Shown here: piece after piece, positions 1,092-50,049 of the stretch | Position numbering within the stretch: the stretch's first letter is position 1 | Layout: the number at the start of each line of letters is the position of its first letter | Source of the DNA: Verrucomicrobiia bacterium | GTDB taxonomy: Bacteria > Verrucomicrobiota > Verrucomicrobiia > Limisphaerales > UBA11358 | Length of the DNA: 64,000 nt | NCBI GenBank assembly: GCA_031290985.1 | Contig: JARLJW010000092.1 | Span: forward strand, 1-64,000 | Reading direction: 5' to 3' | Program-made: the position numbers and the translations under genes | The notes under the pieces: generated by a model | What the model was told of the DNA's origin: nothing | Databases searched by the model: none | The model's input: only the letters and a program-made list of their open reading frames with translations

Positions 1092-1138
1092 TGTGGCCAT
1101 TTCATGCCTCATGACAGATTCGCAACCCGGCTTATCTT
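1092..1138 (+). promoter_or_regulatory. Promoter with palindromic operator, copy 1
   Basis: TGTGGC (1092-1097), an 8-bp spacer and GCCTCA (1106-1111) form an inverted repeat with one mismatch. ATGACA (1111-1116) fits a -35 box and TATCTT (1133-1138) a -10 box, with a 16-bp gap. The lectin-like gene starts 50 bp downstream at 1189. Two nearly identical modules occur at 5493 and 13072. Confidence 0.6.
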
Positions 1139-1188
1139 TTAGCCAAATCCTGAACACCCGGTCTCATTTTTATTTTGTCAGTTCCATC

Positions 1189-1722
1189 ATGAAATGGAAG
1201 TTGTTCGCCTGCGTGGCGTTGTTCCTCTGCACCGCGTTGCGCGCGTCGGCGGATTCTGCCACCAATTCTCCGCTCGCGTCAGCGCCCAAGTCCTACCAGA
1301 TCCGCAACGTCAAATATGCCGACCTCCTCCGGCCGGAGGACGCCAACAACGCCAATGGCACGCGCCTCGTCCTGTATCCCGCGCAACCGTGGAAGTGCAT
1401 GACCTGGAAACTGCTCCCTGCCGGCGCGGACACGTTTCAGGTGCGGAACCATTTCACGTCCAAAACCTTCGCGGGCAGTTCCACGAACGACGTGGCCCCC
1501 GTCGTGCAGGTGCCGTTCGCCAAGGATGCCGCCGCGCGCCCGGTGTGGCATTTCATCAAATTGAATGACGGCGGCTACGAAATCACCGATCCCAAAACCG
1601 GCCGCGTGTTGACCGCGGAAAAAGAGCGCGGCTCGCCGAAGATCACCCTCGAACCCTGGCACGACCAGCCCGAGCAAAAGTGGGAACTGATCGAGATCGA
1701 CCCCGCTACGCTGACCATGTGA
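1189..1722 (+). CDS. Secreted ricin-type beta-trefoil (lectin-like) protein
   Basis: The 177-residue protein starts at the ATG that gives a clean signal peptide (KWKLFACVALFLCTALRASA); upstream in-frame codons would put a non-signal sequence in front of it. The mature part has the spacing of ricin-type sugar-binding modules: YQIRN near the start, NGTRLVLYP, WKLLPAG, FQVRNHFTSK, YEITDPKTGRVL and a final QKWELIEID, i.e. repeats of the form I-x-N...G..L...W. It probably binds carbohydrate in the periplasm or outside the cell. It lies 31 bp before a GH2 gene and shares the operator-bearing promoter at 1092, so the two are probably co-transcribed, with the lectin holding or concentrating substrate for the enzyme. 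No catalytic motif is visible. Confidence 0.7.
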   Translation: MKWKLFACVALFLCTALRASADSATNSPLASAPKSYQIRNVKYADLLRPEDANNANGTRLVLYPAQPWKCMTWKLLPAGADTFQVRNHFTSKTFAGSSTNDVAPVVQVPFAKDAAARPVWHFIKLNDGGYEITDPKTGRVLTAEKERGSPKITLEPWHDQPEQKWELIEIDPATLTM

Positions 1723-1753
1723 GCGTAATGGCAGCCCGCCAAGAATTGTTTTT

Positions 1754-4700
1754 ATGAAGTTACCCGGATTGTTTGCCGTGTGCGCCGGCCTCGCGCTGTT
1801 CGCCTGCCTTGCGGCATCCACCGCCTCCGCCTGGCAACTGCAAACCGCGCCCATCGTCACCAGTTGGGCGCAACTCGTGGATACCAATAATCCGTTGCCC
1901 GAATATCCGCGTCCCCAGATGGTCCGCACAAACTGGCTCAGTTTGAATGGCCTCTGGCAGTTCCAGGCCGGCGCCACCAACGACCCCGTGCCCACCAACC
2001 AGACGCTCGCCGGCGACATCCTCGTGCCGTACCCGATGGAATCCGCGCTCTCCGGCGTCGCCGAATATCATCTGTTCTCCTGGTATCGCCGCACGTTCAC
2101 CGTGCCGCCTGCGTGGAGCGGGCAGCGCATCCTCCTGCACTTCGATGCCGTCGACTGGCAATCGCAGGTCTACCTCAACGGCCAGAGCGTCGGCATCCAC
2201 AAAGGCGGTTACGACGCCTTCACCTACGACGTCACCCCGTACCTCACCGGCAGCGGCCCGCAGGAATTGATTGTGCGCGTGTACAACGCCGTGGACTTTG
2301 CCGGCGAGCCGCGCGGCAAGCAGACCTTGTTTCAAGGCGGCATCATGTACACGTCTTCCACCGGTATCTGGCAGCCCGTGTGGCTCGAACCCGTCCCCGC
2401 CACCAGCATCAGCGATATCAAACTCATCCCGGACGTCGACAACAGCCGCCTCAACATCTCCGTCGCCATTTCCGGTCCCACCAACGGTGTCATCGTGAAC
2501 GCCATCGCGCGCAGCGGCGGCATCCTCATCAATACCATCGCCGGCGCGCCCGGCTTGACCAATTTTGCGCTGCCCATTCCCAGCCCCAACTTGTGGAGCC
2601 CCACCAATCCGTTCCTGTACGACCTCACCGTCACGCTCTCCAACGCCACGAGCACCATTGATTCCGTCGGCAGCTATTTTGGTATGCGCAAAATCAGCCT
2701 CGCGACGAACGGCAACCAGATCAAGATTTTGCTGAACAACCAGTTTGTCTTCGAGTTCGGCCCGCTCGATCAAGGCTTCTGGCCCGATGGCCTCTACACC
2801 GCGCCCACCGACGACGCGCTTAAGAGCGACATCGAGCAGGAAAAAGCCCTCGGCTTTAACATGGTGCGCAAGCACATCAAGGTCGAACGCCAGCGCTGGT
2901 ATTATTGGGCGGACAAGCTCGGCATCCTCGTCTGGCAGGACATGCCCAGCGTCAATTCCTACACCGGCACGCCGCAGACCATCGACACCAACCAGTTCGA
3001 AACCGAACTCGTGCGCCTGGTGCAAAATCATTGGAACCATCCCGCCATCATCATGTGGGTCGTGTTCAATGAATCCCAGGGCCAGCACGACACCACGCTG
3101 TTGGTGCCCGAAGTCAAAGCCCTCGACCCCTCGCGCCTCGTCAATCAAGCCAGCGGCGGCGACTACTTTGGCGTCGGCGACATCTACGATAATCACAGCT
3201 ACCCCGATCCCGGCGCGCCGACCAGCACCACGCAGGCGAATGTCGATGGCGAATTTGGCGGCATCGGCCTGGGCATCACCAATCACACTTGGGCCGCAGG
3301 GTGGGGCTACGTCGCCGCCGCGAATGGCGATGACCAGGCCGCGAAGTTCGAAGTCTTTTGCGGCGAGCTTGCCGGCGATGTCCAGAACACCGGCTTGAAC
3401 GCCGCTGTCTACACCGAGATCACGGATGTCGAAACGGAATTGAACGGCCTCTACACCTACGACCGCGCCGTGCGCAAACCGGACCTGCGCCGGATGCAGG
3501 CCGCCATTCTCTCCGCGAGCGTGCCGCCCGTCATGACCACCGTGGTGCCCACCTCGCAAAGCGGCGGGCTTACGTGGCAGTACGTCACCAGCGCCCCGGC
3601 CGCCAATTGGTACACGACCGGTTTCGATGCCTCGGCGTGGAGCAGCGGCTCCGCCGGTTTCGGGGCCGGCGATCCGCCGAACACATCCGGCCTCGTCCGC
3701 ACGGCGTGGAATAACTCCGACATCTGGCTCCGCCGCACCGTCAATCCCGGCGCACTCACCACGCAGCAGATCAGCAATCTCGTCTTCTCCGTTTATCACG
3801 ATGAAGACGTGGAGATTTACGTCAACGGCGTGCTTGCCGCCAGCGCCAGCGGTTACACCACGGCGTACACGTACCTGGCGCTGAACGCCGCCGGCCAGGC
3901 CGCCCTCATCCCCAACGCCAGCAACCTGCTCGCCGTGCATTGTCATCAGACGGGCGGGGGACAGTACATCGACGTCGGCCTCTCCGTCCGCAGCAACGCC
4001 ACTGCCGCCTTGCCGTCGCCGCCCGCCGTTCCCGCCAACGTCATCCTCGGTGCCGGCCAGTACGGCGTATCAGTTGGGTGGAGCACCGTGACCAATGCCG
4101 CCACGTACAATCTCAAGCGTTCCACCGTCAGCGGCGGTCCATACACGAACGTCGTTGTCGCGCCGATGAATGCCGGCACCGACAACACGGTCACCAACCG
4201 CACCACCTATTACTATGTTGTATCTGCCGTGAACGCCGCCGGCGAGAGCGCCAACTCCGCCGAGGTCAGCGTCACCACCGCTCCGCCCGTCGTGCCGCCG
4301 CTGCCTCAGTTGACCACCTGGTTCAAGGCCGATGCCATCACCGGCCTCGTCAATGGCGCGGCGGTTTCGCTGTGGCCCGATGCCAGCGGCCAGGGCGACA
4401 ACGCCACGCAGACCACCGCCGGCCAGATGCCCAAGTACGTCACCGGCGCCATCAACGGCCTGCCCGTCGTCCGCTTCAATTCCACCAACCAGACCAGCCT
4501 CGCTTTTCCGCGCACCATCTCCGGCGACTTCACCCTCATCTGCGTTTTCCGGAGCACGCAGGGCCTCAATACCGGCACGCTCTACTTCCAAGGCGCGGGC
4601 CTCGTCAGCGGCGAAGTGTCCGGTGTGGTGAATGATTTCGGCACCTGCCTCTTCGCCGACGGCACCCTCTGCGCCGGCACCGGCAACCCGGATGTCGCCG

Positions 4701-5476
4701 TCAATTCCGGCCCCGGCTTCAACAATGGCGCGCCGCACATCTTCACCTTCACGCGCAAACGCGCCACCGGCGGCATCGCCCTCTACGTCGATGGCGCGCT
4801 CGCCGGCACCACCACCGGCAGCACCGCCTCCTTGACCGCGCCCTCCGCGCTCGTCCTCGGCGCGCAGCAGACGCTCCAGTATTATCTCAATGGCGACATC
4901 GCCGAAGTGAAGATCTACAACGCCGCCCTGGCCGACGCCGACCGCCTCACGGATGAAGGCTCGCTCCGGTGCAAATACAATCTCGGCTCCGGCGTCCTGC
5001 CCCCGGCGCCCGGCGGCCTCCTCGCCGCCGCCGGCAACCGGCGCGTGCAGTTGAGCTGGAACCCCGTCGTCGGCGCCAACAGCTACAACGTTTTTTCCGC
5101 CACGAATTCCGCCGGACCATTCACGGCTTGCGCGGGCGTCCTGACCACGACAAATTTTACCGACCTCAATGCCAGCAATGGCGTCACGAATTATTACCAG
5201 GTCGTGGCCGTGAGCAGTTGCGGTGCGGGTGCCCGTTCGCCCACCGCCGCCGTGCTGCTGCCGTTGCCCATGCTCGGCGTGAATTTTACCGGCGGTTCAC
5301 TGAACCTGAACTGGCCGGCGTGGGCCGATGATTGGAAATTATATAAGGCCACCAACCTCATGCCGCCCATCGCCTGGCAGTTGGTGACCAATGTCGCGAC
5401 CGGCACGAACGGATCATTTATGCTGGGTTTGCCGCAAAGTACGACGGCGCAATTCTACCGGCTAACCAGCCCTTGA
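1754..5476 (+). CDS. GH2-family glycoside hydrolase with FN3, LamG and C-terminal domains
   Basis: The 1240-residue exported enzyme has a signal peptide ending near STASA. Residues about 35-320 form the GH2 jelly roll and Ig-like domains (LSLNGLWQFQAG, SWYRRTFTVP, YLNGQSVGIHKGGYDAF). About 320-590 form the TIM barrel, with the likely acid/base E440 in VVFNESQGQHD and the likely nucleophile E500 in DGEFGG. Family activities include beta-galactosidase, beta-mannosidase and beta-glucuronidase; the sequence alone does not choose between them. About 590-745 is a beta-sandwich module with the signature HCHQTGGGQYIDVG, also found in the proteins at 14049 and 16633. FN3 (about 755-845), LamG (about 850-1070), a second FN3 and a tail ending QFYRLTSP follow. 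The first 745 residues closely resemble the GH2 at 16633, so the two are paralogues. Confidence 0.9.
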   Translation: MKLPGLFAVCAGLALFACLAASTASAWQLQTAPIVTSWAQLVDTNNPLPEYPRPQMVRTNWLSLNGLWQFQAGATNDPVPTNQTLAGDILVPYPMESALSGVAEYHLFSWYRRTFTVPPAWSGQRILLHFDAVDWQSQVYLNGQSVGIHKGGYDAFTYDVTPYLTGSGPQELIVRVYNAVDFAGEPRGKQTLFQGGIMYTSSTGIWQPVWLEPVPATSISDIKLIPDVDNSRLNISVAISGPTNGVIVNAIARSGGILINTIAGAPGLTNFALPIPSPNLWSPTNPFLYDLTVTLSNATSTIDSVGSYFGMRKISLATNGNQIKILLNNQFVFEFGPLDQGFWPDGLYTAPTDDALKSDIEQEKALGFNMVRKHIKVERQRWYYWADKLGILVWQDMPSVNSYTGTPQTIDTNQFETELVRLVQNHWNHPAIIMWVVFNESQGQHDTTLLVPEVKALDPSRLVNQASGGDYFGVGDIYDNHSYPDPGAPTSTTQANVDGEFGGIGLGITNHTWAAGWGYVAAANGDDQAAKFEVFCGELAGDVQNTGLNAAVYTEITDVETELNGLYTYDRAVRKPDLRRMQAAILSASVPPVMTTVVPTSQSGGLTWQYVTSAPAANWYTTGFDASAWSSGSAGFGAGDPPNTSGLVRTAWNNSDIWLRRTVNPGALTTQQISNLVFSVYHDEDVEIYVNGVLAASASGYTTAYTYLALNAAGQAALIPNASNLLAVHCHQTGGGQYIDVGLSVRSNATAALPSPPAVPANVILGAGQYGVSVGWSTVTNAATYNLKRSTVSGGPYTNVVVAPMNAGTDNTVTNRTTYYYVVSAVNAAGESANSAEVSVTTAPPVVPPLPQLTTWFKADAITGLVNGAAVSLWPDASGQGDNATQTTAGQMPKYVTGAINGLPVVRFNSTNQTSLAFPRTISGDFTLICVFRSTQGLNTGTLYFQGAGLVSGEVSGVVNDFGTCLFADGTLCAGTGNPDVAVNSGPGFNNGAPHIFTFTRKRATGGIALYVDGALAGTTTGSTASLTAPSALVLGAQQTLQYYLNGDIAEVKIYNAALADADRLTDEGSLRCKYNLGSGVLPPAPGGLLAAAGNRRVQLSWNPVVGANSYNVFSATNSAGPFTACAGVLTTTNFTDLNASNGVTNYYQVVAVSSCGAGARSPTAAVLLPLPMLGVNFTGGSLNLNWPAWADDWKLYKATNLMPPIAWQLVTNVATGTNGSFMLGLPQSTTAQFYRLTSP

Positions 5477-5492
5477 ACCACGTGTGCTACAT

Positions 5493-5539
5493 TGTGGCCA
5501 TTTCATGCCACATGACACTTTCTGAAACTGATTTAATGT
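5493..5539 (+). promoter_or_regulatory. Promoter with palindromic operator, copy 2
   Basis: TGTGGC (5493-5498) and GCCACA (5507-5512) form perfect 6-bp inverted arms around an 8-bp spacer. ATGACA (5512-5517) fits a -35 box and TAATGT (5534-5539) a -10 box, with a 16-bp gap. The strand-repeat gene starts at 5636, leaving a leader of roughly 90 bases. The operator ends where the -35 box begins, so a bound regulator would either touch or block RNA polymerase. Confidence 0.65.
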
Positions 5540-5635
5540 TATTACCAATATCCCAAAGCCAAAGTTGTCCCCACCCACCCGTGGTATCGACTTGGATCAC
5601 GGATGCCGAACTGTAAATAAAACCAAACAGACCCA

Positions 5636-8600
5636 ATGAAAATCCCCACAACCTCACGACTCGCCCGCATCTCCCAGGCCGGTGTTTTGACGCTGGCCTT
5701 GCTGGCTGCTTCCAGCAGCGCAATCTACGCCACTGACATCACTTGGAGCGGCGGGACGGCGGAATATACCAATGCCACGGACTGGACCGGCGGAGTGGTT
5801 CCCGGCGGCGGCGACAATGCCATCAATGACAACGGCAGCGCGAACGTGGTGCAGATCCTTGGCACGGATCCAACTTGGACCGTGAATGACATCCGGGCCG
5901 CCAATGGGGGCGGCACCACGGGCGCATTTTACCAAAACGGTTCGGCCGTGACTCTCGGCGGCTGGTTCCGCCTCGGGATCGGCGCCGGGGCCACCGGCAC
6001 CTATACCCTGCACAGCGGGAACATCCAGATCAACAACGACCGCCTTAACGTCGGTGAACTGGGCACGGGCATTCTGAACATTGATGGCGGCACGATCACG
6101 GGCCCCAACAACCAGTTCGCGCTGGCGGACGGCCCCACTGGTGCCAGCGGCACGGTCAATCAGACCGGCGGCACGGTCAACTCCGGCGGCGAACTATGGG
6201 TCGGCGCCAATAATGCCGGCTCGGGTGGCAATGGCGCGGTCGGTGTTTACAATTTAAGCGGCGGCGTGTTGAACATCAACAACTGGGTCGCCATCGGCCG
6301 CAATGGCACCACCGGCACCATCAACATGAGCGGCGGCAACTTCAACAAAAACAACAACGGACAATTCCTGGTCGCCACCGGCAACGGCAGCATCGGCACC
6401 TTCATCCAGGGCGGCGGCAACCTCGTCGTGCAAAGCGAATTTCGGGTTCCCGATGGTGGCGACGGCTCGACTTTGGGCACCTACAATATCAGCAACAGTG
6501 CCACCTTGGTGGTCAATAACTGGCTCGCCATCGGTCGCAGCGGCGGCGTGGGTGTCGCCAACATCACCGGTGGTTCCGTCACCAAGACCGGCACCGGTTC
6601 CGACCATCTGGACGTGGGTGCGGGCGGCCCTGGCACGGTCAATCAGACCGGCGGCGCGGTGACCAACCTGACCAGCGATACTTGGATCGGTGAAAACTCT
6701 GCCGGCACTTGGAATCTCAACGGTGGCGTCGATAACTTCGCCGCCGTGCACCTCGCGCAGGTCTCGGGCGGCAGCGGTAAATTGTATTTGAACGGCGGTA
6801 CGTTCATCACCACGGAATTGACCACGGGCAACCCGGCCGCGGGCAGCCAGGTGATCTTCAACGGCGGCACGCTCGTCGCCAGTGCCAGCAACCTGCACTT
6901 CATGCACGACATCACCTTTGCCGGCATCAGTGCCGGTGGCGCGATCATCGATACCGCGGGCAATAATATCACCATCCCGCAGGAGATCGACGACAACGGC
7001 GGCGGCGGCCTCACGAAGAACGGGGCGGGTACGCTCACGCTGACGGGTCCTAATACTTACACCGGCCCGACCGTGGTCAACAACGGAGCGCTGGCGCTCA
7101 CCACCAGTCCCACCGGTCCCACCGGCCAGGGTGATTATACGGTCGCTGGCGGTGCCCAATTGAGTCTCGCCGTCCAAGGTCTCAATGACCAGTTGACCGT
7201 CGGCAACCTCACCTTTGGCAGTGGCGCCCCCGTCCTCAACCTTGATCTGGGAGCCTACGGCAACCCGTCCGTTGGCTCCGGCCCCGTGAACGTGCTCGGC
7301 GCGCTGACGGTCGGCGGCACGGCGATTGTTAATATCGCCGATGCGTTGCCGCAAATCGGCCAGTTTCCGTTGATCCAATTCGCATCCACGACCGGTGCGG
7401 GCAGCTTCGTGCTCGGGAGCTTGCCGCTCGGCGTCGGCGCCTACCTCAGTAATAACGTAAGTTCCGTTGATCTCGTCATCACCAACGTAAACCTGCCGCG
7501 CTGGGAAGGCCTGGCCGGCGGCAATTGGGATGTTAACCTGACCACGAACTGGATCAACATTGGCACGGGCTTGCCCGCCTTCTTCAATAATGGCAACGCG
7601 GTTTTGTTCAATGATCAGGCCCTGGGAACGACCACGGTAAACCTGGTCGCCACCGTCAGTCCCGCCAGTGTGACCTTCAATAATAATAGCGCCGTTTATT
7701 CGCTCGTCGGCTCGGGCAAAATCAGCGGCGCTACCGGCCTCAGCCTGCAAGGCACCGGCACCGCCAACCTCCTCAACACCGGCGGCAACAACTTTACCGG
7801 CCCGGTGGTCATCTCCGGCGGCGTCTTGGCGGTGACCAATCTTGCCAACGGCGGTTCGCCGAGTGCGATTGGTGCCTCTTCCGCTAATCCGACAAATTTG
7901 GTGTTGAATGGCGGTAATCTAACCTACTCCGGGCCGGCCGCGACGATCAATCGCGGCTATCTGACGGAGCAGACGAACAGCTCCCTCACCACCGTGAGCA
8001 ACCTGACCTTGACCGGCACTGCCAACGCCACGCAATTTGGCGGATTGACCAAAACTGGCAACGCCCAGCTCAGCTACCAGGGCATCGGCTCCAATGTCCT
8101 CTCTGGTTCGGGCTCCCTGGGCTACAGCGTGCAGGCCGGCTCGGTTCTGTTTGACGGATCCGGTGGCGGCCAAACCAACCTGGTGCAAAATGGTTTCAAT
8201 GTGGTCGGTGCCGCGGGTGTGGCGTCGGTCATCGTCACCAACGCGACCGTCACCACGACCGGCGATATGAGCCTGGGCAATGTTCCCAGCACCGCGGGAA
8301 CGTTGACCTTGAACAATGGCGCCACGTTGAACGTCGGCTCATGGTTTACGCTCTCCGACTCGGCGGGTTCAACCGGCACCTGCACCTTGAACAGCGGCAG
8401 CACCTTGAACGTAAACAACGGCCGGCTCTTCTTGTGCTCGAACAAGGGCACCTACGACATCCTTAACATCAATGGCGGCACCATCAACAAGTCCGGCGAC
8501 TACTTTGCCGTCGTCAACGGCGGCTGGAATGGCGTCGGCGCCCGCACCGGCGTGGTCAACCAGGTCAGCGGCACGGTCAACAGCTCTTCCGAGTGTTGGA

Positions 8601-10375
8601 TTGGTGACTCCGGCGGTGCCGGGAATGGATCCGTGGGCATCTATAACTTGAGCGGCGGAACCTTGACGGTTAACAACTGGTTCGGCATTGGCCGGGACGG
8701 GTCGACTGGCATCTTTAACATGTCGGGTGGCATTCTCAACAAGGGTGTCGGTGGCGACATGGTGATCGGCCGGGGCGGCAGTTACGGAACCTTTACCATG
8801 ACCGGCGGCACGATCAACAAAGATAACAACAATCCAATCCTCGTGGGTCAGGGTGGCGGCATCGGCGAGTTGGACATCAGCGGCGGCACGCTGAACAGTG
8901 CCGGCGAGTATTGGCTGGGCACGGACAATGGCACCATCGCCACCAACAACATCAGCGGCACGGCGCAAATGAACGTTCACAACTGGGTGACCATTGGTCG
9001 TGCCGGTTTGGGCGTCGTTAATATGTCCAGTGGGCAGTTTAACTCAGACGTCAATCAATTCGTGGTTGGCATTTTTGGCGGAAGCCAGGGCATCTGGAAC
9101 CAATCCGGCGGCGCGTTATACGTCAATCAGGAAATATGGATCGGCCAGGGTGATAATAATGCCCATGGCACCATCAATCTGAGCGGTGGTACCATCACTA
9201 ACACCAGCTGGTTGGCTGTTGGCCGGGAAGGCGGGCATGGCACGCTGAACATTAGCGGCGGCACGATGGTCAAGACCGGTGGTGGGAATATCAGCATCGC
9301 CCACAACGGTGGCGCATCGGGTGATGTGGTCATCAGTGGCACGGGCACGTTCCTCTGCTTGTCCGGTGAAACCTGGGTCGGCGAGAATGCCGCTCCCGGC
9401 ACCTGGACCATGAACGGCGGCACGGCCGTTCTCGGCCTCGTGCATCTCGCTCAAAATGCCGACGCCCAAGGCTTGATGACCCTCAATGCCGGTTCGCTGA
9501 CCGCCAATGAAATTTCCACCGGCAATAACGGCGCTTCCCAACGCGAGTTGGATTTCAATGGCGGCACGCTGGTGGCCGGCGCGGATAATTCCAACTTCAT
9601 CCACGACCTGAGTGCGGCCAACATCAAATCGGGCGGTGCCATCATCAATACCGCGTCACATTCGGTTTCCGTGAATCAAGCCTTGCTGGGTGTGTCCCCT
9701 GACGGCGGACTCACCAAGAACGGCAACGGCACGTTGTATCTGAACGGGGTTAACACCTACACCAACACCACCTTCGCCAACCTCGGCGGCCTCGGCGGCT
9801 CCGGCGTCATCACGTCCCCGTTGATCGTGGCTTCCGGCGCCACCCTGACGCCTGGTGCCGGCGGCATCGGCACCTTCACCGTCAACAACACGGTCACCTT
9901 GGCGGCGGGCAGCTCCACCTTGATGGAAGTGGACAAGACTGCGGGCACCCATGACCTGCTCCAAGGCGCCTCGACCTTGCACTACGGCGGTACGTTGATC
10001 ATCTCCAACCTGAGCGCTGCCTTCGTCGGTGGTGAATCTTACAAGCTGTTCGACGCCACGAACTACACCGGTTCCTTCAGCGCCATCAGCCCGGCGACGC
10101 CCGGTGCCGGCATGACTTGGAACACCAGCCAGCTCGCCGTGAACGGCACCCTCTCCATCAGCGGCGGGGTTCCGGTCATCACCGCCACGGTCTCCGGTGG
10201 CAACCTGAACCTGTCCTGGCCGGTCGCCGGCAGCCATCTGCAGATCCAGACCAACTCGCTGGCCACCGGCCTCAGCACCAACTGGTCGAATGTGCCGAAC
10301 TCCACCACCACGAACGCCGTTTCCATTCCGTTGAACCCGGCCATCCCGGCGGTGTTCCTCCGTTTGGCTCCGTGA
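5636..10375 (+). CDS. Giant secreted protein with autotransporter-associated beta-strand repeats
   Basis: The 1579-residue protein has a signal peptide ending near SSAIYA. Almost the whole chain is built of short glycine/asparagine-rich strand repeats such as YNLSGGVLNINNWVAIGR, FNMSGGILNKG and LNISGGTMVKTG, in two large blocks (DNA about 5990-6900 and 8230-9560) separated by a less regular middle. PATR-type units (LTKNGAGTLTLTGPNTYTG; LTKNGNGTLYLNGVNTYTN) close each block. Such repeats form right-handed beta-helices in autotransporter passengers and adhesins. No C-terminal membrane barrel is present; the chain ends instead in the roughly 70-residue domain shared by several proteins here (NLNLSWPV ... 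FLRLAP). It is probably an extracellular surface or matrix protein. It has its own operator-bearing promoter at 5493 and is followed by a strong hairpin. Confidence 0.8.
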   Translation: MKIPTTSRLARISQAGVLTLALLAASSSAIYATDITWSGGTAEYTNATDWTGGVVPGGGDNAINDNGSANVVQILGTDPTWTVNDIRAANGGGTTGAFYQNGSAVTLGGWFRLGIGAGATGTYTLHSGNIQINNDRLNVGELGTGILNIDGGTITGPNNQFALADGPTGASGTVNQTGGTVNSGGELWVGANNAGSGGNGAVGVYNLSGGVLNINNWVAIGRNGTTGTINMSGGNFNKNNNGQFLVATGNGSIGTFIQGGGNLVVQSEFRVPDGGDGSTLGTYNISNSATLVVNNWLAIGRSGGVGVANITGGSVTKTGTGSDHLDVGAGGPGTVNQTGGAVTNLTSDTWIGENSAGTWNLNGGVDNFAAVHLAQVSGGSGKLYLNGGTFITTELTTGNPAAGSQVIFNGGTLVASASNLHFMHDITFAGISAGGAIIDTAGNNITIPQEIDDNGGGGLTKNGAGTLTLTGPNTYTGPTVVNNGALALTTSPTGPTGQGDYTVAGGAQLSLAVQGLNDQLTVGNLTFGSGAPVLNLDLGAYGNPSVGSGPVNVLGALTVGGTAIVNIADALPQIGQFPLIQFASTTGAGSFVLGSLPLGVGAYLSNNVSSVDLVITNVNLPRWEGLAGGNWDVNLTTNWINIGTGLPAFFNNGNAVLFNDQALGTTTVNLVATVSPASVTFNNNSAVYSLVGSGKISGATGLSLQGTGTANLLNTGGNNFTGPVVISGGVLAVTNLANGGSPSAIGASSANPTNLVLNGGNLTYSGPAATINRGYLTEQTNSSLTTVSNLTLTGTANATQFGGLTKTGNAQLSYQGIGSNVLSGSGSLGYSVQAGSVLFDGSGGGQTNLVQNGFNVVGAAGVASVIVTNATVTTTGDMSLGNVPSTAGTLTLNNGATLNVGSWFTLSDSAGSTGTCTLNSGSTLNVNNGRLFLCSNKGTYDILNINGGTINKSGDYFAVVNGGWNGVGARTGVVNQVSGTVNSSSECWIGDSGGAGNGSVGIYNLSGGTLTVNNWFGIGRDGSTGIFNMSGGILNKGVGGDMVIGRGGSYGTFTMTGGTINKDNNNPILVGQGGGIGELDISGGTLNSAGEYWLGTDNGTIATNNISGTAQMNVHNWVTIGRAGLGVVNMSSGQFNSDVNQFVVGIFGGSQGIWNQSGGALYVNQEIWIGQGDNNAHGTINLSGGTITNTSWLAVGREGGHGTLNISGGTMVKTGGGNISIAHNGGASGDVVISGTGTFLCLSGETWVGENAAPGTWTMNGGTAVLGLVHLAQNADAQGLMTLNAGSLTANEISTGNNGASQRELDFNGGTLVAGADNSNFIHDLSAANIKSGGAIINTASHSVSVNQALLGVSPDGGLTKNGNGTLYLNGVNTYTNTTFANLGGLGGSGVITSPLIVASGATLTPGAGGIGTFTVNNTVTLAAGSSTLMEVDKTAGTHDLLQGASTLHYGGTLIISNLSAAFVGGESYKLFDATNYTGSFSAISPATPGAGMTWNTSQLAVNGTLSISGGVPVITATVSGGNLNLSWPVAGSHLQIQTNSLATGLSTNWSNVPNSTTTNAVSIPLNPAIPAVFLRLAP

Positions 10376-10415
10376 TCGGTGGGAAGCGGAACCTGGTTTT
10401 CGCTTCGTAAATCTG

Positions 10416-10446
10416 GCCCGGTGAGTGCATGGTGCATTCACCGGGC
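10416..10446 (+). terminator. Stem-loop downstream of the strand-repeat gene
   Basis: A 14-bp stem (one G-T wobble) pairs 10416-10429 with 10433-10446 around the 3-base loop TGG. It begins 40 bp after the stop at 10375 and 14 bp before the next start at 10461. There is no clear T-run, so it may end transcription, protect the 3' end, or only attenuate read-through into the GH127-like gene. Confidence 0.55.
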
Positions 10447-10460
10447 TGCTTGATTAAATA

Positions 10461-13040
10461 ATGAACATATTTGTTTCCAGATCCATCCGCCAAGCGGGTT
10501 TCATTTTTATGGGATGGATCGGCTGTTCCGCGCTCACCCTCGCGCAGGGGGTTCCCGCCGCGACCAATCTGCCGCCCACGGCCGTCGTCCCCAATCGCGC
10601 CCCGCTGCTCGCGCCGCCGTTCACCGCCCTGCCGCTGGGCGGCGTCCGCCCCCGCGGCTGGCTACTCACCCAGTGCCAACAGCAGCGCGACGGCCTCACC
10701 GGCAATGCCGAGGCCGTTTATGCCGTCGATATCGGCACCAACAGCGCCTGGCTCGGCGGCACGGGTGACAGTTGGGAGCGCAGCCCCTATTACTACAAAG
10801 GTCTCATCCCCCTGGCCTATGTGCTGAACGACGCCGGCCTCAAACTAAAGGCCCAAAAGTGGATTGATTGGCTGCTCACTCATCAAGGCACGGACGGCTA
10901 TCTGGGGCCCGCCGCGAACAACGACTGGTGGCCGCGCATGCTCGCCACCTATGCCCTGCGCGATTATTACGAAGCCACCGGGGACGCGCGCGTCCCCGCT
11001 GCGTTGAACAATTACTTCCATTACATGCTCGTCCACCTGCCGACCCGCCCGTTGAGCGACTGGGGCAAAGCTCGCGCCGGCGACGAAATGGATGTCGCCC
11101 TCTGGCTCTACAACCGCAATGGCGACACCAATCTGCTCACGCTCGTCAACCTCCTGCACCGGCAGGCCTACGACTGGACTGGCATTTTTACCAGCAACAA
11201 TTTTGATTCGTACGGCACCGACTTTCAGCCCAAGCACAATGTGAACGTCGAGCAGGCGCTCAAGCTGCCCGATGTCTACTACCAGCTTTCCGGCCAGCCC
11301 GCCGACCGCAACGCGCTCGCCCTCGGCTGGGACAACCTGATGCGCGAGCACGGCCTGTCCTGCGGCCTCAACGGCGGCACGGAATTTCTCGCCGGCAACG
11401 CCAGCGTGCAGGGCGTCGAACTCTGTTCCATTGTCGAGGCCATGCTCAGCCTGGAAACCTCCCTGCGCACCACCGGCGACCCGGTGCTGGCCGACCGCCT
11501 GGAAACCATTTCGTTCAACGCGCTGCCCGCCGCGCTCGCCAACCACATCAAGGGCATCCAGTATTTCACGCTGCCCAACAACGTCATCGCCATCAACGGC
11601 GGCCATGGCTACAACCAGGATTATGCCAACGGCTCCGTGCCCGGCCCCAACTCCGGCTTCCCCTGCTGCCGCTATAATTTTCACATGGGCTGGCCCAAGT
11701 ACGTCCAGAATTCCTGGGCCGCCACCGCGGACGGAGGTCTCGCCGCGCTCGCCTATGGCCCGACCGTGGTGAATGCCCTGGTCGGCGGCCAGCCGGTGCA
11801 GATCACCGAGGACACCGGCTATCCGTTTGAAGAACAGTTGCGGCTGCAGATTTCGGTGGCCAGCCCGCTGGCTTTTCCGCTGGCCTTGCGCATTCCCGGC
11901 TGGTGCAGCCACGCCGCCATCACCGTCAACGGTCAGCCCCAAACCGGCGTTCAGCCGGCTTCATTCTTCCGCCTGCAACGGACTTGGACCAACGGCGACA
12001 CGGTCGTCATCAATTTGCCGATGCCCATCCAGACCCAGCCCGGCCCCAGCCGCTCGCTGTCCGTCAATCGCGGCCCGGTGGTTTATTCTTTGAAGATCGG
12101 GGAACAGTGGACGGTCAGCACGCCCGATCCGCTGGGGCTGGGCTTTGATGAATATCAGGTGCGCGCCACGACACCGTGGGCATACGCGCTGCAACTGAAT
12201 CTGACCAATCTCGCGGACTCCCTCGCCTTTACCAATTACGGCACCCCCGCGAATCCGTTTGATCCCGCCCAGCCGTCGGTTGCCTTGACGGCGCAGGCAC
12301 GCCAATTGCCGGAGTGGACGATTGGCTGGCGCGGCACCCATGCCTTCGAGCCGCCCGTGAGCCCCGTGGCTTCCAGCAGTCCGCTCGAGACGGTCACCTT
12401 GGTGCCGTTTGGTTCTCAGCACCTGCGCGTGAGCTGGTTTCCGTATCTGGGCGCGCCGTCCCCGACGGTCGGCTCGTTCACCGACAATTTTGATTCCGGC
12501 TGGAGCCGGCGCTGGACGGTGTTCGGCGGCAATTGGACGGTGCGCAACGGCGTTTTGAACACGGTGCCGGCCTCGGCCAATGGTGCCAAGGCGCTGGCCA
12601 TGGCCACGGCCTTCACTAATTTTACCTACGAGGCGGATGTCTCGGCCGGTTCCGTCGGCGATGCCGGCCTGGTTTTCCGCGCCAGCCAGCCGGATATCGG
12701 CGCGGATGCCTATTGCGGTTATTACGTGGGCCTCAGTCCTTCCGGGGCCAATCTGCAATTGGGCTATGCCAACAACGGCTGGCATTCGCTCACGAATGTG
12801 TCCATGCCTTTCGCGGCGAACACCGCGTATCATCTCAAAGTTTCCGCACAAGGTTCCCGTCTCCGCATCTTTGTTAATGGCGCCGACCTGCCGGCGATTG
12901 ATCTGCGGGACACCACGTTCAGCCGTGGCATGATCGGGGTTCGCACTTATTGCACGGATGGCGACAAGTCGGTCTCCAGTTATGCGAATCCCGCGGCGCA
13001 CGAACTGCCCGTCGCACCGGCGGGCGGTCCGCACGCCTGA
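10461..13040 (+). CDS. GH127-like beta-L-arabinofuranosidase with C-terminal lectin-like domain
   Basis: The 859-residue exported protein has a signal peptide ending near LTLAQ. Residues about 50-620 match the DUF1680/GH127 family, an (alpha/alpha)6 barrel followed by beta-sandwiches (PLGGVRPRGWLL; WERSPYYYKGLIPLAYVL; LALRIPGWC). In characterised GH127 enzymes a zinc ion is held by one Glu and three Cys, one of which is the nucleophile. The matching residues here appear to be E320 and C322 (GVELCSIVEAM) and C402-C403 (FPCCRYN). Families related to GH127 share this core, so the exact sugar (beta-L-arabinofuranose or another) is not certain. About 675-850 (FTDNFDSGW...IGVRTYCTDG) is a concanavalin-like beta-sandwich. 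The gene follows a hairpin by 14 bp and is itself followed by another hairpin at 13055. Confidence 0.85.
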   Translation: MNIFVSRSIRQAGFIFMGWIGCSALTLAQGVPAATNLPPTAVVPNRAPLLAPPFTALPLGGVRPRGWLLTQCQQQRDGLTGNAEAVYAVDIGTNSAWLGGTGDSWERSPYYYKGLIPLAYVLNDAGLKLKAQKWIDWLLTHQGTDGYLGPAANNDWWPRMLATYALRDYYEATGDARVPAALNNYFHYMLVHLPTRPLSDWGKARAGDEMDVALWLYNRNGDTNLLTLVNLLHRQAYDWTGIFTSNNFDSYGTDFQPKHNVNVEQALKLPDVYYQLSGQPADRNALALGWDNLMREHGLSCGLNGGTEFLAGNASVQGVELCSIVEAMLSLETSLRTTGDPVLADRLETISFNALPAALANHIKGIQYFTLPNNVIAINGGHGYNQDYANGSVPGPNSGFPCCRYNFHMGWPKYVQNSWAATADGGLAALAYGPTVVNALVGGQPVQITEDTGYPFEEQLRLQISVASPLAFPLALRIPGWCSHAAITVNGQPQTGVQPASFFRLQRTWTNGDTVVINLPMPIQTQPGPSRSLSVNRGPVVYSLKIGEQWTVSTPDPLGLGFDEYQVRATTPWAYALQLNLTNLADSLAFTNYGTPANPFDPAQPSVALTAQARQLPEWTIGWRGTHAFEPPVSPVASSSPLETVTLVPFGSQHLRVSWFPYLGAPSPTVGSFTDNFDSGWSRRWTVFGGNWTVRNGVLNTVPASANGAKALAMATAFTNFTYEADVSAGSVGDAGLVFRASQPDIGADAYCGYYVGLSPSGANLQLGYANNGWHSLTNVSMPFAANTAYHLKVSAQGSRLRIFVNGADLPAIDLRDTTFSRGMIGVRTYCTDGDKSVSSYANPAAHELPVAPAGGPHA

Positions 13041-13054
13041 TATCGGTTCGAGGG

Positions 13055-13073
13055 CAACGCGCACTTCGCGTTG
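13055..13073 (+). terminator. Short stem-loop after the GH127-like gene
   Basis: CAACGCG (13055-13061) and CGCGTTG (13067-13073) form a perfect 7-bp stem with a 5-base loop, 14 bp after the stop at 13040. There is no T-run. Its right arm overlaps the first two bases of operator copy 3, so termination and re-initiation are closely packed here. Confidence 0.4.
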
Positions 13074-13119
13074 TGGCCAATTCATGCCACATGACAAAAA
13101 CGGGGTTCGGGCCTAGCTT
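13072..13119 (+). promoter_or_regulatory. Promoter with palindromic operator, copy 3
   Basis: TGTGGC (13072-13077) and GCCACA (13086-13091) form perfect inverted arms around an 8-bp spacer. ATGACA (13091-13096) fits a -35 box and TAGCTT (13114-13119) a -10 box, with a 17-bp gap. The pseudopilin frame begins only 13 bp after the -10 box, so the leader would be very short. This promoter probably drives the tightly packed genes from 13132 to 28204. Confidence 0.65.
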
Positions 13120-13131
13120 GCCTTAATTCCT

Positions 13132-14016
13132 GTGAAGAAAATGAATGCAAAATTTGTCAAATCTGCCCACGTCATCCGCCGTGGTGGACCCTGCCGCCGC
13201 GCCTTTACCCTGATCGAGCTGCTGGTGGTCATCGCCATCATCGCCATTCTGGCCGCCATGCTCCTGCCGGCCCTCGCCAAGGCCAAGGCCAAGGCCAAGC
13301 AATCCGCCTGCATCAACAACATGCGGCAGATCGGCTTGTCGCTGGTCATGTATGCGGACAATTACAACCAATATCCCGGCGACTACCGGACGTCGAATCA
13401 TACTTATGTCTGGCAAACCCGTCTGCTGTCCACCATGGGCAATAATCGCGCCGCCTTTTCCTGCCCGGCCGCCCTGTCCCAAAGCTGGTGGGATACCAAT
13501 GTCAATGACAGCTTGGCCGGCCCGGCTGGTTTCATCGTGAAGGGTGAGGACGCCAAGGTCGACAATTTCGCGGTCATGAGCGGCGATTCCGACAGCCAGG
13601 GCAGCCGTTTTTCTCTGGGCTATAATGACTGGGGGGTGAGCCTGAGCGCCACGCCACAACTGGGGTTGGGCGGTGACGTTGATGGCAACTTCAATAAAGG
13701 CCCGGTGAAGGACAGCATGGTGCGCAGCCCCGTGAGCATGATCGCGATCGGGGACTGCCGTTCGGACGGGGTCAAAGGCAGCATCAAGTTCAACGCCAAT
13801 CTGGATCCGACCGATTCCTCCGTACAACGCCCCTGCAACCGGCACAATTTCCGCACCGACCTGCTTTTTTGTGACGGCCACGTCGAGGCTGCCAAGCGGG
13901 ATGATGTGATTGATCCCAGCCTCAACTCTTCATGGCGGCCTCACTGGAACAATGACAATGACGCGCACACGGAAGTCACTTGGACGATTGCAAACACCAC
14001 CGCCTTGGAGCAGTAA
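13132..14016 (+). CDS. Type II secretion/type IV pilin-like pseudopilin, H-X9-DG type
   Basis: The 294-residue protein has a short basic leader, then [18 protein letters not shown] and a lysine-rich helix ([10 protein letters not shown]), the prepilin N-terminal cleavage/methylation signal. The residue before the cleavage point is Ala rather than the usual Gly (RRAFTLIEL). Near the C-terminus, [15 protein letters not shown] fits the H-X9-DG pattern of a pseudopilin group that is abundant in Planctomycetes and Verrucomicrobia. It would be cleaved by prepilin peptidase and join an inner-membrane pseudopilus. The start is GTG at 13132 or ATG at 13141. It is the first gene after operator copy 3 and is 32 bp before the GtaA-like enzyme. 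Two related genes lie at 35193 and 54455, each also beside a hydrolase. Confidence 0.85.
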
Positions 14017-14048: not shown

Positions 14049-16628
14049 ATGAATAAAAAATTCGTTTGCCGCCTTGGCGTCGTATTCACCGTGCTCGCGA
14101 CCGGTTTTTCCGCCGTGGCCGCAGAGCCGTTACGCCCCCCCTCCGTGCCCTTGGTGGCGTGCAATCCCTACTTCAGCATCTGGTCGCCCGCCGACAAACT
14201 GACTGATGCCGATACCACGCACTGGACCGGGAAATCCCAGCGCCTCACCAGCCTCATCCGGATTGATGGCAAAACGTTCCGCCTCATGGGCAAGGAACCG
14301 TCCGTCATTCCGGCCCTGCCGCAGACGCAGGTTCAAGTGCTGCCCACGCGCACGATCTATTCCTTCGCCGGCGAGGGCGTGAACGTCACCTTGACCTTCA
14401 TGACGGCCGCTTTGCCGGAAGACCTCGACCTGTTGTCGCGCCCCGTGACCTATCTGACCTGGGATTGCTCCGCCACCGACGGCCAGAAACACGCGGTGGA
14501 AACCTATTTCGATGCGTCCAGTGAACTCGCCGTCAACACGCCCGACCAGGCCGTGGTCTGGTCCGCCGAAAAAAAATCCGGCGTCGCCGCCCTCAAGGTC
14601 GGTTCCCTGGATCAACACGTGCTCGGGCAAAGCGGCGATGACCTGCGCATTGACTGGGGCTATTTGTACGTCGCCGCCGCCGCCGGCCAGAAGGCGCTCC
14701 TCGCGCTGGTGGATCCGGCCGACGGGCGCGCCGCGTTCGCCAAGTCCGGCAGGCTGTCCGCCGCCATCCCGTCATCCGCCCAGGTGAAACAGCCCGCCGC
14801 CGCCGCACCCGTCTCCGCGCTTGTGCTCCATTTTGGCAATGTCGGGGAGCAGCCGGTTTCCCGCTGGCTGATGCTGGCCTATGACGAACTCTATGCGATC
14901 CAGTACATGAAGCAAGATCTCCGGCCCTACTGGCGTCGCCATGGCTGGGAGGCCGCCGACCTGCTGAAGGCCGCCGCGCATGATTACGATTCTTTGAAGC
15001 TGCGCTGTGAAACGTTTGACCGTGAATTGATGGCCGACCTGACCAGTGCCGGGGGTGAAAACTACGCGCAGCTTGGCGCGCTCGCCTACCGTCAATGCTT
15101 CGCCGCCGGGGTCTTCGCGGCCGATGGCAACGGCCAGCCGCTCCAGTTCTGCAAGGAAAACCACTCCAACGGCTGCATCAGCACCTCCGATGTCTTTTAC
15201 CCGATGTCGCCGCAGTTCCTCCTGTTCGGCCCCTCGGTGGCCAAGTCCTTCATCGTGCCGTTCATGAATTACGCGGCGAGCGAGCGCTGGAAATTTCCCT
15301 TCGCCCCGCACGATCTCGGCACCTATCCCAAGGCCAACGGCCAGGTCTATGGCGATGGCGAAAACGGCGTGAACAACCAGATGCCCGTCGAGGAAAGCGG
15401 CAACCTGCTGTGCCTCTTCGCCGCCGTCGGCGAGATGGAAGGCAATGCGAACTTTGCCGGACTTTACTGGAAGCAGCTCGAACAATGGGCCGGTTATCTC
15501 AAGGAAAAAGGTTTCGACCCCGAGAAGCAGCTTTGCACGGATGACTTCGCCGGCCACCTCGCGCACAACGTCAACCTGAGCGCCAAGGCCATCTGCGGCC
15601 TCGGCTCCTTCGCGAAGCTGTGCGAACTGCGCGGCGACCAGGCGAAGGCCGATGAATATTACCAGTTTGCGCGCGCCGCCGCGCAGCGCTGGGTCAAGGA
15701 GGCCGATGACGGCGATCATTTCCGCCTCGCCTTCGACCGCCCCGGAACTTGGAGCCAGAAATACAACCTCGTCTGGGACGGCGTGCTGGGTCTGAACCTG
15801 TTCCCCGCCGAAGTTGTCCGCAAGGAGATGGCTTTCTACAAGCAGAAGCAGAACGCATACGGCCTGCCGCTCGATAACCGTGAGACCTACACCAAGCTCG
15901 ACTGGATCACCTGGACCGCCACGCTCACCCGGGACCGCGCCGATTTCGAGGCCTTGGTCGCGCCCATCATCAACTTTCTGAATCACACGCCCGACCGGTC
16001 CCCGATGACCGACTGGTATCAGACCAAGTCTGCCCGCAAGGTCGGTTTCACCGCGCGCCCCGTCGTGGGCGGGGTGTTCATGCAGATGCTGTATGACAAA
16101 CCGGTCTGGCAAAAATATGCCGCGCGCGACCAGGTCAAGGCCGCCAATTGGGCGCCCATCCCCAAGCCCCCGGTTGTGACCATGGTCATTCCGGCCGCTG
16201 ACCGGGCCCCGGCCAAGTGGCGTTACACCACCACGCAGCCCGGCGCGGATTGGACGAAGGTAAATTTTGACGCCTCCGCCTGGGCGGAAGGCTGGAGCGG
16301 TTTTGGCATGCGCGGCACGCCGGGCGCCTTGCCCAACACCACCTGGAACACCAGCGACATCTGGCTGCGCCGGGACGTGGAGATCGCCCCGGCACAGTTG
16401 AAGAACATCGCGCTGTGGTTTCATCATGACGACGATGCCGAGGTGTACATCAACGGCGTGCTTGCCCTGAATGCCGGCGGATTCGTGGGCCGGTACGATT
16501 ATTTTCCGCTGACGGAGCAGGGCCGGGCCGCGCTCAAGCCCGGAAAGAATGCCATCGCGATCCACTGTCATCAAACCGGTGGCGGGCAGTACGTGGACCT
16601 CGGTTTTGTGGCTGTTAAGCCGAACTAA
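14049..16628 (+). CDS. GtaA-like (DUF5127/DUF4965/DUF1793) six-hairpin enzyme
   Basis: The 859-residue exported protein has a signal peptide ending near FSAVAA. Residues about 25-700 match the glutaminase-A-like architecture: an N-terminal beta domain (RPPSVPLVACNPYFSIWSPA, DTTHWTGKSQRL) and an (alpha/alpha)6 barrel (NHSNGCISTSDVFYPMSP, FPFAPHDLGTYPKANGQVY, NNQMPVEESGNLL). Fungal members are called glutaminases, but many bacterial members sit in glycan loci and may act on sugars, so the activity here is open. Residues about 710-858 are the HCHQTGGGQYVDLG beta-sandwich module also present in both GH2 proteins. It lies between the pseudopilin and the second GH2, with only 4 bp to the latter, which supports an operon and a shared glycan target. 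Confidence 0.8.
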   Translation: MNKKFVCRLGVVFTVLATGFSAVAAEPLRPPSVPLVACNPYFSIWSPADKLTDADTTHWTGKSQRLTSLIRIDGKTFRLMGKEPSVIPALPQTQVQVLPTRTIYSFAGEGVNVTLTFMTAALPEDLDLLSRPVTYLTWDCSATDGQKHAVETYFDASSELAVNTPDQAVVWSAEKKSGVAALKVGSLDQHVLGQSGDDLRIDWGYLYVAAAAGQKALLALVDPADGRAAFAKSGRLSAAIPSSAQVKQPAAAAPVSALVLHFGNVGEQPVSRWLMLAYDELYAIQYMKQDLRPYWRRHGWEAADLLKAAAHDYDSLKLRCETFDRELMADLTSAGGENYAQLGALAYRQCFAAGVFAADGNGQPLQFCKENHSNGCISTSDVFYPMSPQFLLFGPSVAKSFIVPFMNYAASERWKFPFAPHDLGTYPKANGQVYGDGENGVNNQMPVEESGNLLCLFAAVGEMEGNANFAGLYWKQLEQWAGYLKEKGFDPEKQLCTDDFAGHLAHNVNLSAKAICGLGSFAKLCELRGDQAKADEYYQFARAAAQRWVKEADDGDHFRLAFDRPGTWSQKYNLVWDGVLGLNLFPAEVVRKEMAFYKQKQNAYGLPLDNRETYTKLDWITWTATLTRDRADFEALVAPIINFLNHTPDRSPMTDWYQTKSARKVGFTARPVVGGVFMQMLYDKPVWQKYAARDQVKAANWAPIPKPPVVTMVIPAADRAPAKWRYTTTQPGADWTKVNFDASAWAEGWSGFGMRGTPGALPNTTWNTSDIWLRRDVEIAPAQLKNIALWFHHDDDAEVYINGVLALNAGGFVGRYDYFPLTEQGRAALKPGKNAIAIHCHQTGGGQYVDLGFVAVKPN

Positions 16629-16632
16629 AATA

Positions 16633-25860: not shown

Positions 25861-25876
25861 TCCTCGTTTAAACTCC

Positions 25877-31300: not shown

Positions 31301-31551
31301 TTGCCTTGGACTCGGGAAATTTGATCCTCACTGTTCGCGATAACGGCCGGGGCTTCGTGAACCCGCCCGCGCCGGGTCCCGGGCCGGAGATTTCCGGAGG
31401 CGAACAACATGACGGCTTGCAGAACATGCGCCGCCGCCTGGCGAACATTTCCGGGCAACTGGAGCTGGCAAGCCGGCCCGGGAGCACTTGTATTATAATG
31501 GTGCTGCCGCTGGGTGGGGCGACAACCAATATGAGCGCCGGCAACCCTTGA
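28327..31551 (+). CDS. Beta-propeller sensor histidine kinase (Reg_prop/Y_Y_Y/HisKA_3)
   Basis: The protein has up to 1074 residues from the first ATG; starts at 28396 or 28426 are also plausible, because the membrane-targeting segment (FVQLLVSLILLPLC) begins later. Residues about 84-690 contain many two-component propeller repeats (EDGLPQSTVTCIAQ, GYLWLGTQNGLVRFDG, LWVGT.GGL.R). A Y_Y_Y domain (about 741-805), one transmembrane helix (about 811-835), a HisKA_3 region with H866 in QDIHDELGANLTE and an HATPase domain (EALNNVVKHS, DNGRGF, GLQNMRRRL) follow. The propeller and Y_Y_Y parts would lie in the periplasm and sense a glycan product or a binding protein. No receiver domain is fused. The partner is the regulator at 31671. 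A related kinase lies at 46765. Confidence 0.9.
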   Translation: MPHASPGLRIRWTLKRSSIKPCFMRHANAVKKIMARPVGADFFRLGFIPRFSGPGFVQLLVSLILLPLCTSSPGRDSSQLSEYQTTIWRVEDGLPQSTVTCIAQSAEGYLWLGTQNGLVRFDGVKFRVFDENNTPAFQNSRIVRLLCDQEGTLWVGTEHGRLVRFRDGQFTAYDVPSRGTTHDYARVFCGDRDGALWQVSCEWQLIQWLQGKFTVLSDNWNLSSPSAHALACDVAGRIWVGTDRELAVLKDGQFQPQWGRTNEENFQVDFLAPCRTGGVWVAANGRLRKFDAGHWTVDLGAYAWTNRPIYDLYEDHEQRLWVATLGGGLFRYDAGGGLLHLTSQSGLPTDFVRSVMEDREGNIWAGTEGGGLCRLKPALFQTYGVAQGLASDQVMAVAEARDGGMWIGTDGDGLDHWQDGKIQHYGLREGLGNGHVWSVLQDRSGTVWAGTWDGLYKWQDGTFNGLSDGQTIGWQVLAMYENRAGDLWLGQQAFGGITRLRDGERTVVKIPETSANLDVRTFIEDHDTNLWVGTSEDGLYRLRDGNVTHFGRKDGLGSDSIWCLYVDPAGVLWVGTCRGGLSRWADGHFTTWTTQNGLLNNVICQIMEDAQGNLWLGSYGGIFRINKQELNASASRAGQKIHCIGYNAEDGLPSLECQGGFQPSGYKSADGRLWFPTIKGLVVVDPAKVHSNASPPNVVIEAILADGLLQAATNRSDRLGISPLPETTIPAGNQHLEFQYTALSFVAPKEVHFKCRLEGLEQDWEDTGAKRTVEYRHVPPGHYQFRVIAGNGDGVWNEAGASAAIVVLPYFWETKWFLAANALAGLALVVSIARYSERRWMQRRLERVERERAVEKERSRIAQDIHDELGANLTEIAMLSEFAQEPTASPAQVHADMQKITAKARNLTQMMDEVVWAVTPQNDSLEKFVTYTCSFAEEYLLTAKIACRLEVPAILPEFILSSDVRHNLFLTVKEALNNVVKHSRATEVRIQVALDSGNLILTVRDNGRGFVNPPAPGPGPEISGGEQHDGLQNMRRRLANISGQLELASRPGSTCIIMVLPLGGATTNMSAGNP

Positions 31552-31670
31552 AAACCATGATTACGCCGCCCGGTCGGGGCAGGAATATGCCTGTCGTTCA
31601 TTTGGACGACCAGCCCGCCGGCATTTATCATTGGCGCTCGCCGGGTGAAGCAGTATAAACCCTTTGATTT

Positions 31671-50040: not shown

Positions 50041-50049
50041 TTTGCCAGT

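Follow-up and report, generated by a model that had tools for sequence, protein, structure and literature searches.

NarL-type response regulators usually recognize inverted-repeat sites of about 16–20 bp, and the hybrid two-component systems (HTCS) that serve glycan utilisation in Bacteroides combine a kinase, a receiver, and an AraC-type output domain in one polypeptide. Members of the order to which the genome studied here belongs are mostly uncultured, and they encode many glycoside hydrolases (GH) and propeller sensor kinases whose targets are unknown. We analyzed a 64,000-nucleotide stretch from a Verrucomicrobiia bacterium (hereafter the window; G000:C56:1-64000, from a genome of 5.98 Mb in 113 contigs) that carries three copies of a compact regulatory module. 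The unit is a palindromic operator (TGTGGC-N8-GCCACA) joined to a TGAC (−35), a 16- or 17-bp spacer, and a −10 box. Since the module recurs in related genomes, mostly before genes for secreted sugar-handling proteins and almost always alongside one particular sensor-regulator pair, a coordinated glycan-feeding programme is very probable. Comparative sequence analysis makes it highly likely that the module serves as promoter and binding site in a dispersed glycan-utilisation regulon, run by a NarL-type regulator and kinase pair of the kind encoded on contig C93 of the same genome.

The window carries three copies of an operator-promoter module

The original prediction had placed the dyad, followed at once by TGACA, at positions 1092, 5493, and 13072. 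Exact matches to TGTGGC-N8-GCCACATGACA were found at 5493 and 13072 (none in 100 shuffles), while the copy at 1092, which reads TGTGGCCATTTCATGCCTCATGACA, departs from the literal pattern by a single mismatch in the dyad. As predicted, copies 1 and 2 differ at one position over 25 bp, and so do copies 2 and 3. All elements lie on the forward strand: the operators occupy 1092–1111 (copy 1, TGTGGC-N8-GCCTCA), 5493–5512, and 13072–13091 (copies 2 and 3, perfect dyads), and the last base of each dyad also belongs to an ATGACA −35 hexamer (1111–1116, 5512–5517, and 13091–13096). The predicted TAnnnT boxes follow after spacers of 16 bp (TATCTT, 1133–1138), 16 bp (TAATGT, 5534–5539), and 17 bp (TAGCTT, 13114–13119), the first of them in a register found in 60 of the 106 copies analyzed below. 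All three copies sit in gaps 5′ of secreted-protein or pseudopilin genes, which encode a ricin-B lectin (1189), a PATR-repeat protein (5636), and a DUF1559-type pseudopilin (13132). When the dyad alone was searched with three mismatches it was not enriched in the window (42 found, shuffle mean 49), so only near-perfect copies are meaningful.

The promoter register is nearly fixed over many loci and genera

For register analysis, 116 oriented palindromes (≤2 mismatches) were taken from the collected loci, those with fewer than 60 bases before or 120 after being dropped, and 106 were left once near-identical flanks had been removed. A few of these are chance matches in genomes without the regulator described below, and at least one listed copy (G016:C266) is not in the set. 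The conserved letters of the dyad are partly fixed by the search pattern. Positions 21–24 read T, G, A, and C in 72, 84, 73, and 75% of the palindromes, respectively, and no clear conservation upstream of the dyad was seen in the 106. A hexamer overlapping the last base of the dyad fits TTGACA at four or more of six positions in 65/106 (background about 5); since in these copies the last base of the dyad is the first of the −35-like hexamer, operator and promoter are fused, in a nearly fixed register over many loci and genera. TAnnnT lies at offset 21 after the dyad in 25 and at offset 22 in 35 of the 106 palindromes (60 together), the spacing of a sigma-70-type −10 (16–18 bp past the −35), whereas offsets 24–69 hold 0–5 each, usually one or none.

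In a second set, drawn from named records and other genera and comprising 39 palindromes whose flanks are unlike, TAnnnT is at offsets 21, 22, and 23 in 6, 12, and 3 cases (18/39 for the first two together; background 0.5 per offset). TGAC directly follows the dyad in 37 of them, most of the 39 having been found with TGAC in the pattern. Only 15 of the 106 palindromes lie in a predicted open reading frame (ORF), compared with 4574 of 5300 random positions (86%), and of 90 copies between genes, 83 are oriented toward the one that follows; the random scatter, including inside genes, that would have spoken against a promoter role is contradicted by these counts. L015, L064, and L072 are loci where a single palindrome comes close to matching the module in both orientations, and at L064 and L072 this suggests divergent promoters with one common operator.

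Copies recur in the same genome and across one order

A search of the whole genome with the 25-bp pattern (≤3 mismatches) returned seven sites, namely the three window copies, one on C93 with one mismatch, and three with three mismatches, compared with one for a reversed control. The C93 site, hereafter copy 4, is the sole other good genomic copy with a −35 and lies 55 bp 5′ of an aldose 1-epimerase gene (galM). C43:45246-45265 is probably a fifth copy, 5′ of a GH76 gene, with a poorer −35 and TAnnnT at offset 22. The dyad alone with one mismatch gave 26 sites in this genome (each listed on both strands) versus 16 for the reversed pattern, which means that most are chance or belong to another repeat family. 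One such palindrome at C38:12965 (TGTAGCCATTTCATGCCACA), still among the 106 of the register analysis, was rejected as a regulon member for want of a −35 and −10 in register by eye; it sits just past an ORF resembling, also by eye, a translation release factor. Another dispersed family of near-palindromes, TGCGGCTGGGCTGCGCCACA / TGTGGCGGAGCCCAGCCGCA, has seven copies listed on G000 contigs C62, C72, C87, C88, and C90; it is unrelated to the operator centre and possibly a repeat element.

Related genomes were searched as the original prediction had proposed. The genus set comprised every genome returned for the family, 49 in number, which belong to a single genus. Here the pattern TGTGGCNNNNNNATGCCACATGACA at ≤2 mismatches found 73 copies in 19 genomes and its reversal none. 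Bases 7–11 (CCAnTT) are common to the copies though left free in this search. A palindrome-only search gave 119 matches in 23 genomes (reversed, 8), and with all eight central bases free there were 97 in 26 genomes (reversed, 8), including single odd matches in genomes without the regulator, so that these looser searches carry some chance matches. Order-wide, a tighter pattern at ≤1 mismatch was present in 28 of 320 genomes and 11 of 118 genera (reversed control, 0), a cut-off that differs from the one used within the genus. An exact scan of 84,980 species genomes, which may leave out records near the window's genome, returned 56 stretches with titles of Verrucomicrobiota/Verrucomicrobia, Verrucomicrobiia, Verrucomicrobiales, Limisphaerales, Limisphaera, Pedosphaera, or Akkermansiaceae, and some only “bacterium”. 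One metagenome-assembled genome among these matches (L285, L286, and L305) is titled Methylacidimicrobium fagopyrum, a title that looks wrong.

Genes downstream of the module share a glycan-related theme

For 101 of the 106 palindromes, an ORF of 80 or more codons begins no more than 420 bp away, a figure without a control. Single-linkage clustering of the downstream proteins, which merges proteins with a common repeat or domain, gave a PATR-type group of 27 that includes a GH43 protein (L280) and relatives, a LamG/GH76-type group of 15 that includes a GH53 protein (L274), 12 GH2, 10 pseudopilins, 8 GtaA-like proteins, 5 GH127, 3 galM, 3 small lipoprotein-like proteins, 2 propeller kinases, and one each with the window's GH92, lectin, and GxGYxYP proteins; among the 13 singletons, some are spurious ORFs near chance matches. 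Pfam searches of ten representatives add GH125 and an MFS transporter, and one small protein among the ten had no match. Most of the downstream genes encode glycan enzymes that are secreted, lectins, proteins resembling adhesins, or pseudopilins. The alpha-mannosidases (GH92, GH76, and GH125) together with GH2, GH127, GH43, GH53, and galM fit a mannan- or galactan-containing glycan, the exact substrate being a guess. The regulon that the original prediction had drawn from the three window copies is strongly supported by the 73 copies in 19 of 49 genomes, the fixed −35/−10 register, and this common downstream theme.

In the window, copy 1 precedes a two-gene unit of a ricin-B-type lectin (1189–1722, +; Pfam RicinB_lectin_2) and a GH2 with a LamG domain (1754–5476, +). 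Copy 2 precedes a secreted PATR strand-repeat protein (5636–10375, +), placed by clustering in the largest cross-genome downstream group, and probably in the same unit a GH127 beta-L-arabinofuranosidase-like protein (10461–13040, +). Copy 3 precedes a 15-kb unit, all on the forward strand, led by the DUF1559-type pseudopilin (N_methyl; 13132–14016), which clusters with 10 of 101 downstream genes, itself included. It is followed by a GtaA/DUF5127/DUF4964 protein (14049–16628), a GH2 (16549–18927), a GxGYxYP putative glycoside hydrolase with RCC1 and LamG (19045–23679), a gene without a Pfam match (23683–25860), and a GH92 alpha-mannosidase (25691–28204). The two GH2 genes at 1754–5476 and 16549–18927, about 15 kb apart, have common DNA stretches of 71–85% identity.

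One clade of NarL-type regulators tracks the module

On C93 the gene order is operator copy 4, galM, kinase, regulator, and GH2, with genes that overlap or nearly touch, an arrangement that implies autoregulation. The kinase (L141:13355-16675) contains Reg_prop propellers, Y_Y_Y, HisKA_3, and HATPase domains, and the regulator (L141:12716-13351, minus strand), a separate adjoining ORF, contains receiver and GerE domains, the make-up of a NarL/FixJ two-component pair. By sequence alignment the D of its VVLMDINL stretch falls on the phospho-accepting aspartate, the D of LILLDLNM, of NarL (1a04). The operator stands directly 5′ of the kinase operon in G000 (through galM), L100, and L128. The motif and a NarL-type regulator occur together at 17 of 56 larger loci scanned besides the window (C93 among the 17; the loci partly overlap and some lack the motif), as a rule with an adjoining propeller kinase. 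In a tree of 68 regulators, 15 of these 17 group in a single clade (support 0.99), with the window's two regulators outside it. Background regulators were at first the best matches to the window's 31671, a choice that favours a split from the motif-near group; when best matches to the C93 regulator were added, the clade was kept, and all 31 members (19 genus, 12 outside) are monophyletic among 93 regulators (support 0.97).

Presence of the clade follows presence of the motif. A search of the 49 genomes with the C93 clade member as query revealed a gap, with 19 genomes at 283–451 bits (67–100% identity) and the next at 266, and a cut-off of at least 283 bits was fixed beforehand for genomes outside the genus. 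Within the genus, 17 genomes have both clade and motif, 2 the motif only, 2 the clade only, and 28 neither (Fisher p = 4e-9); for the 32 listed as at least 90% complete the counts are 11, 1, 1, and 19 (p = 1e-6). Among 271 other genomes of the order, with the motif taken at ≤1 mismatch, they are 10, 2, 2, and 257 (p = 9e-15). In genus genomes with the motif, 14 of 17 clade regulators have a copy within 8 kb, compared with 2 of 68 non-clade relatives among the matches listed (p = 2e-11); L126 has a further non-clade regulator near a copy, beyond these 68. Outside the genus, 7 of 10 clade regulators have, by coordinates, a copy no more than 8 kb away, at about 50 bp in G265 and G266. The regulator contigs of the three genus genomes that depart from this pattern (G010, G012, and G025), and those of G015 and G018, are short (3.6–15.2 kb) and carry no copy even at six mismatches. 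The regulator G163:C34:2729-3358 (L347), from another family, is 92% identical to that of C93, whereas many genus mates are at about 70%, which suggests that the module was probably transferred horizontally together with its sites.

The recognition helix is also distinctive. Residues S182, I183, H184, T185, V186, R187, N188, Y189, R191, and R192 are identical in all 31 members and position 190 is I in 97%, a conservation somewhat inflated by the definition of the clade through similarity to the C93 protein. H184, R187, and N188 set the clade apart from 62 other regulators, the window's two included, in which E/A, H, and T dominate at these positions. The NarL helix has lysines at the positions aligned with R187 and R191. 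Published work on RcsB describes base contacts by K180 and S184 of helix α9 (PMC5829831), and another report assigns specificity in this family to helix α9 and the α8–α9 loop (PMC3246441). We presume that K180 and S184 of RcsB correspond to R187 and R191 here. Taken together, sequence comparison indicates the clade member on C93, paired with its propeller sensor kinase, as the most likely cognate regulator.

Proposed mechanism and alternative explanations

In the mechanism that we favour, the membrane sensor kinase would sense an extracytoplasmic signal, most probably a fragment of a glycan, and phosphorylate its partner NarL/LuxR-type response regulator. A regulator dimer would then bind the 20-bp inverted repeat TGTGGC-N8-GCCACA and help sigma-70 RNA polymerase at the abutting ATGACA (−35) and TAnnnT (−10). 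If the −10 ends at −7, the centre of the dyad falls about 43 bp 5′ of the expected start, near the position of a class II activator. Targets switched on in this way would be the lectin/GH2 pair, the PATR protein and GH127, the pseudopilin-led 15-kb operon, the GH76 gene, and the regulator's own operon.

Several observations weigh against this account. TAnnnT at offsets 21–22 is not exact in 46/106 and 21/39 copies, and copy 4 itself lacks it, with GACAAT at offset 22 by eye. A simple symmetric dimer leaves the asymmetry of the dyad centre (CCAnTTyATG) unexplained. Clade members occur without the motif in G015 and G018 of the genus (≤2 mismatches; the palindrome-only search finds one two-mismatch copy in G015) and, outside it, in G073 and G149 (≤1 mismatch), while the motif occurs without a clade member in G007, G158, and G261, and in G017 as a single poor match that is probably chance. 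Three motif-near regulators (L123, L124, and L126) fall outside the final clade, and the Fisher values overstate independence because the genomes are related.

Two of the alternatives keep the module as a regulatory site. The original prediction had named the window's own NarL-type regulators, 31671 (31671–32300, +) and 50050 (50050–50760, +), as candidates, and both do lie in the same 64 kb beside propeller kinases and glycan genes; moreover, the kinase that most resembles the window's 28327 among the scanned loci is one of G016 and adjoins a motif copy (L123). Against this, the tree places neither within the motif-tracking clade, their helices (SFVTVRTYIRR and SINTIRMNVRH) differ from that of the clade (SIHTVRNYIRR), and relatives of 31671 above 60% identity occur in just three genomes (G026, G025, and G008), of which G008 lacks the motif. 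Both were rejected as binding proteins on tree and helix, and the naming of them was probably wrong, a role for either being quite improbable. With their kinases they make up two complete propeller-kinase/NarL-type pairs of other clades (28327–32300 and 46756–50760). It is also unlikely, if less so, that the dyad is a repressor operator at which a NarL-type or other protein just 5′ of the −35 represses until a signal relieves it. A site abutting the −35 can hinder polymerase, and sequence alone does not give the sign of the effect, but a centre near −43 roughly matches where class II activators usually bind, the dyad covers neither the −10 nor the start, and the −10 boxes are far from TATAAT (mean 2.4/6 at offset 22, two registers mixed), as in activator-dependent promoters.

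The remaining two dispense with a dedicated activator site or with regulation altogether. At first sight TGGC...TGCC resembles the −24/−12 element of sigma-54, which is GG-N10-GC, but the consensus here is spaced GG-N9-GC, and an alternative-sigma promoter of this or the ECF −35 kind is very improbable given the separate TAnnnT 16–17 bp past the −35 in 60/106 copies, the two-fold symmetry and near-matches on both strands that point to a dimer, and the co-occurring regulator clade. A reading of the repeats as ends of mobile elements, as REP-like elements, or as terminators, with no regulatory role, is hardly credible: they are palindromic and dispersed, and copies 2 and 3 lie 17 and 32 bp past a stop codon, but the fixed downstream promoter register already contradicts such a reading, and against it also speak the lack of clear conservation upstream of the dyad, the largely intergenic location and gene-facing orientation of the copies, the absence of a T-run after the window copies, and neighbouring genes mostly of one function. 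The sigma-54, mobile-element, and terminator readings were rejected on these grounds.

As a broader and tentative proposal, one transferable sensor/NarL-type pair may, in several families of a single order that is probably Limisphaerales, run a genome-wide programme that joins the binding and degradation of glycans with adhesion and with secretion by pseudopili. On the same principle, the many paralogous NarL-type regulators, at least those with propeller kinases, might each recognize a fused operator-promoter of their own, specified by the recognition helix; relatives of 31671 number 4 to 44 per genome. If this were true, the whole glycan-sensing repertoire of these mostly uncultured bacteria could be decoded from sequence. 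A named operator, a regulator clade, and a target list make one propeller sensor a testable regulon, and, where genetics is lacking, a regulator can be matched to its site from co-occurrence and conservation of the recognition helix.

Comparison with known systems

With its receiver and GerE domains, the C93 regulator resembles members of the NarL/FixJ/LuxR family such as NarL, VraR, DevR, RcsB, and ComA. Its closest sequences in the Protein Data Bank are DevR (3c3w), VraR (5hev, 7ve6, and 4gvp), and NarL (1a04), which match over nearly the full length, at no more than 99 bits to any solved NarL-family structure. To our knowledge, NarL, VraR, DevR, RcsB, and ComA have neither the operator TGTGGC-N8-GCCACA nor this glycan regulon.

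The C93 kinase has the Reg_prop and Y_Y_Y sensor architecture of Bacteroides HTCS and likewise sits with glycoside hydrolase genes. By sequence, its sensor part matches the solved structures 4a2l, 3v9f, and 3ott of two-component sensor domains, which we take to be HTCS-type sensors of Bacteroides. Unlike in HTCS, kinase and regulator are separate proteins here, the output domain is GerE, and the targets are dispersed over many contigs instead of gathered in one locus. As in class II sigma-70 promoters, the presumed activator site abuts the −35, with a 16–17-bp spacer and a degenerate −10, but here the dyad's last base doubles as the first of the −35-like hexamer in 65/106 copies. In a literature search of an open-access subset, none of the titles and abstract openings listed described the operator or regulon. 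The parts are of known kinds, whereas the operator, its pairing with this regulator clade, and a dispersed regulon in the order appear, within that search, to be new.

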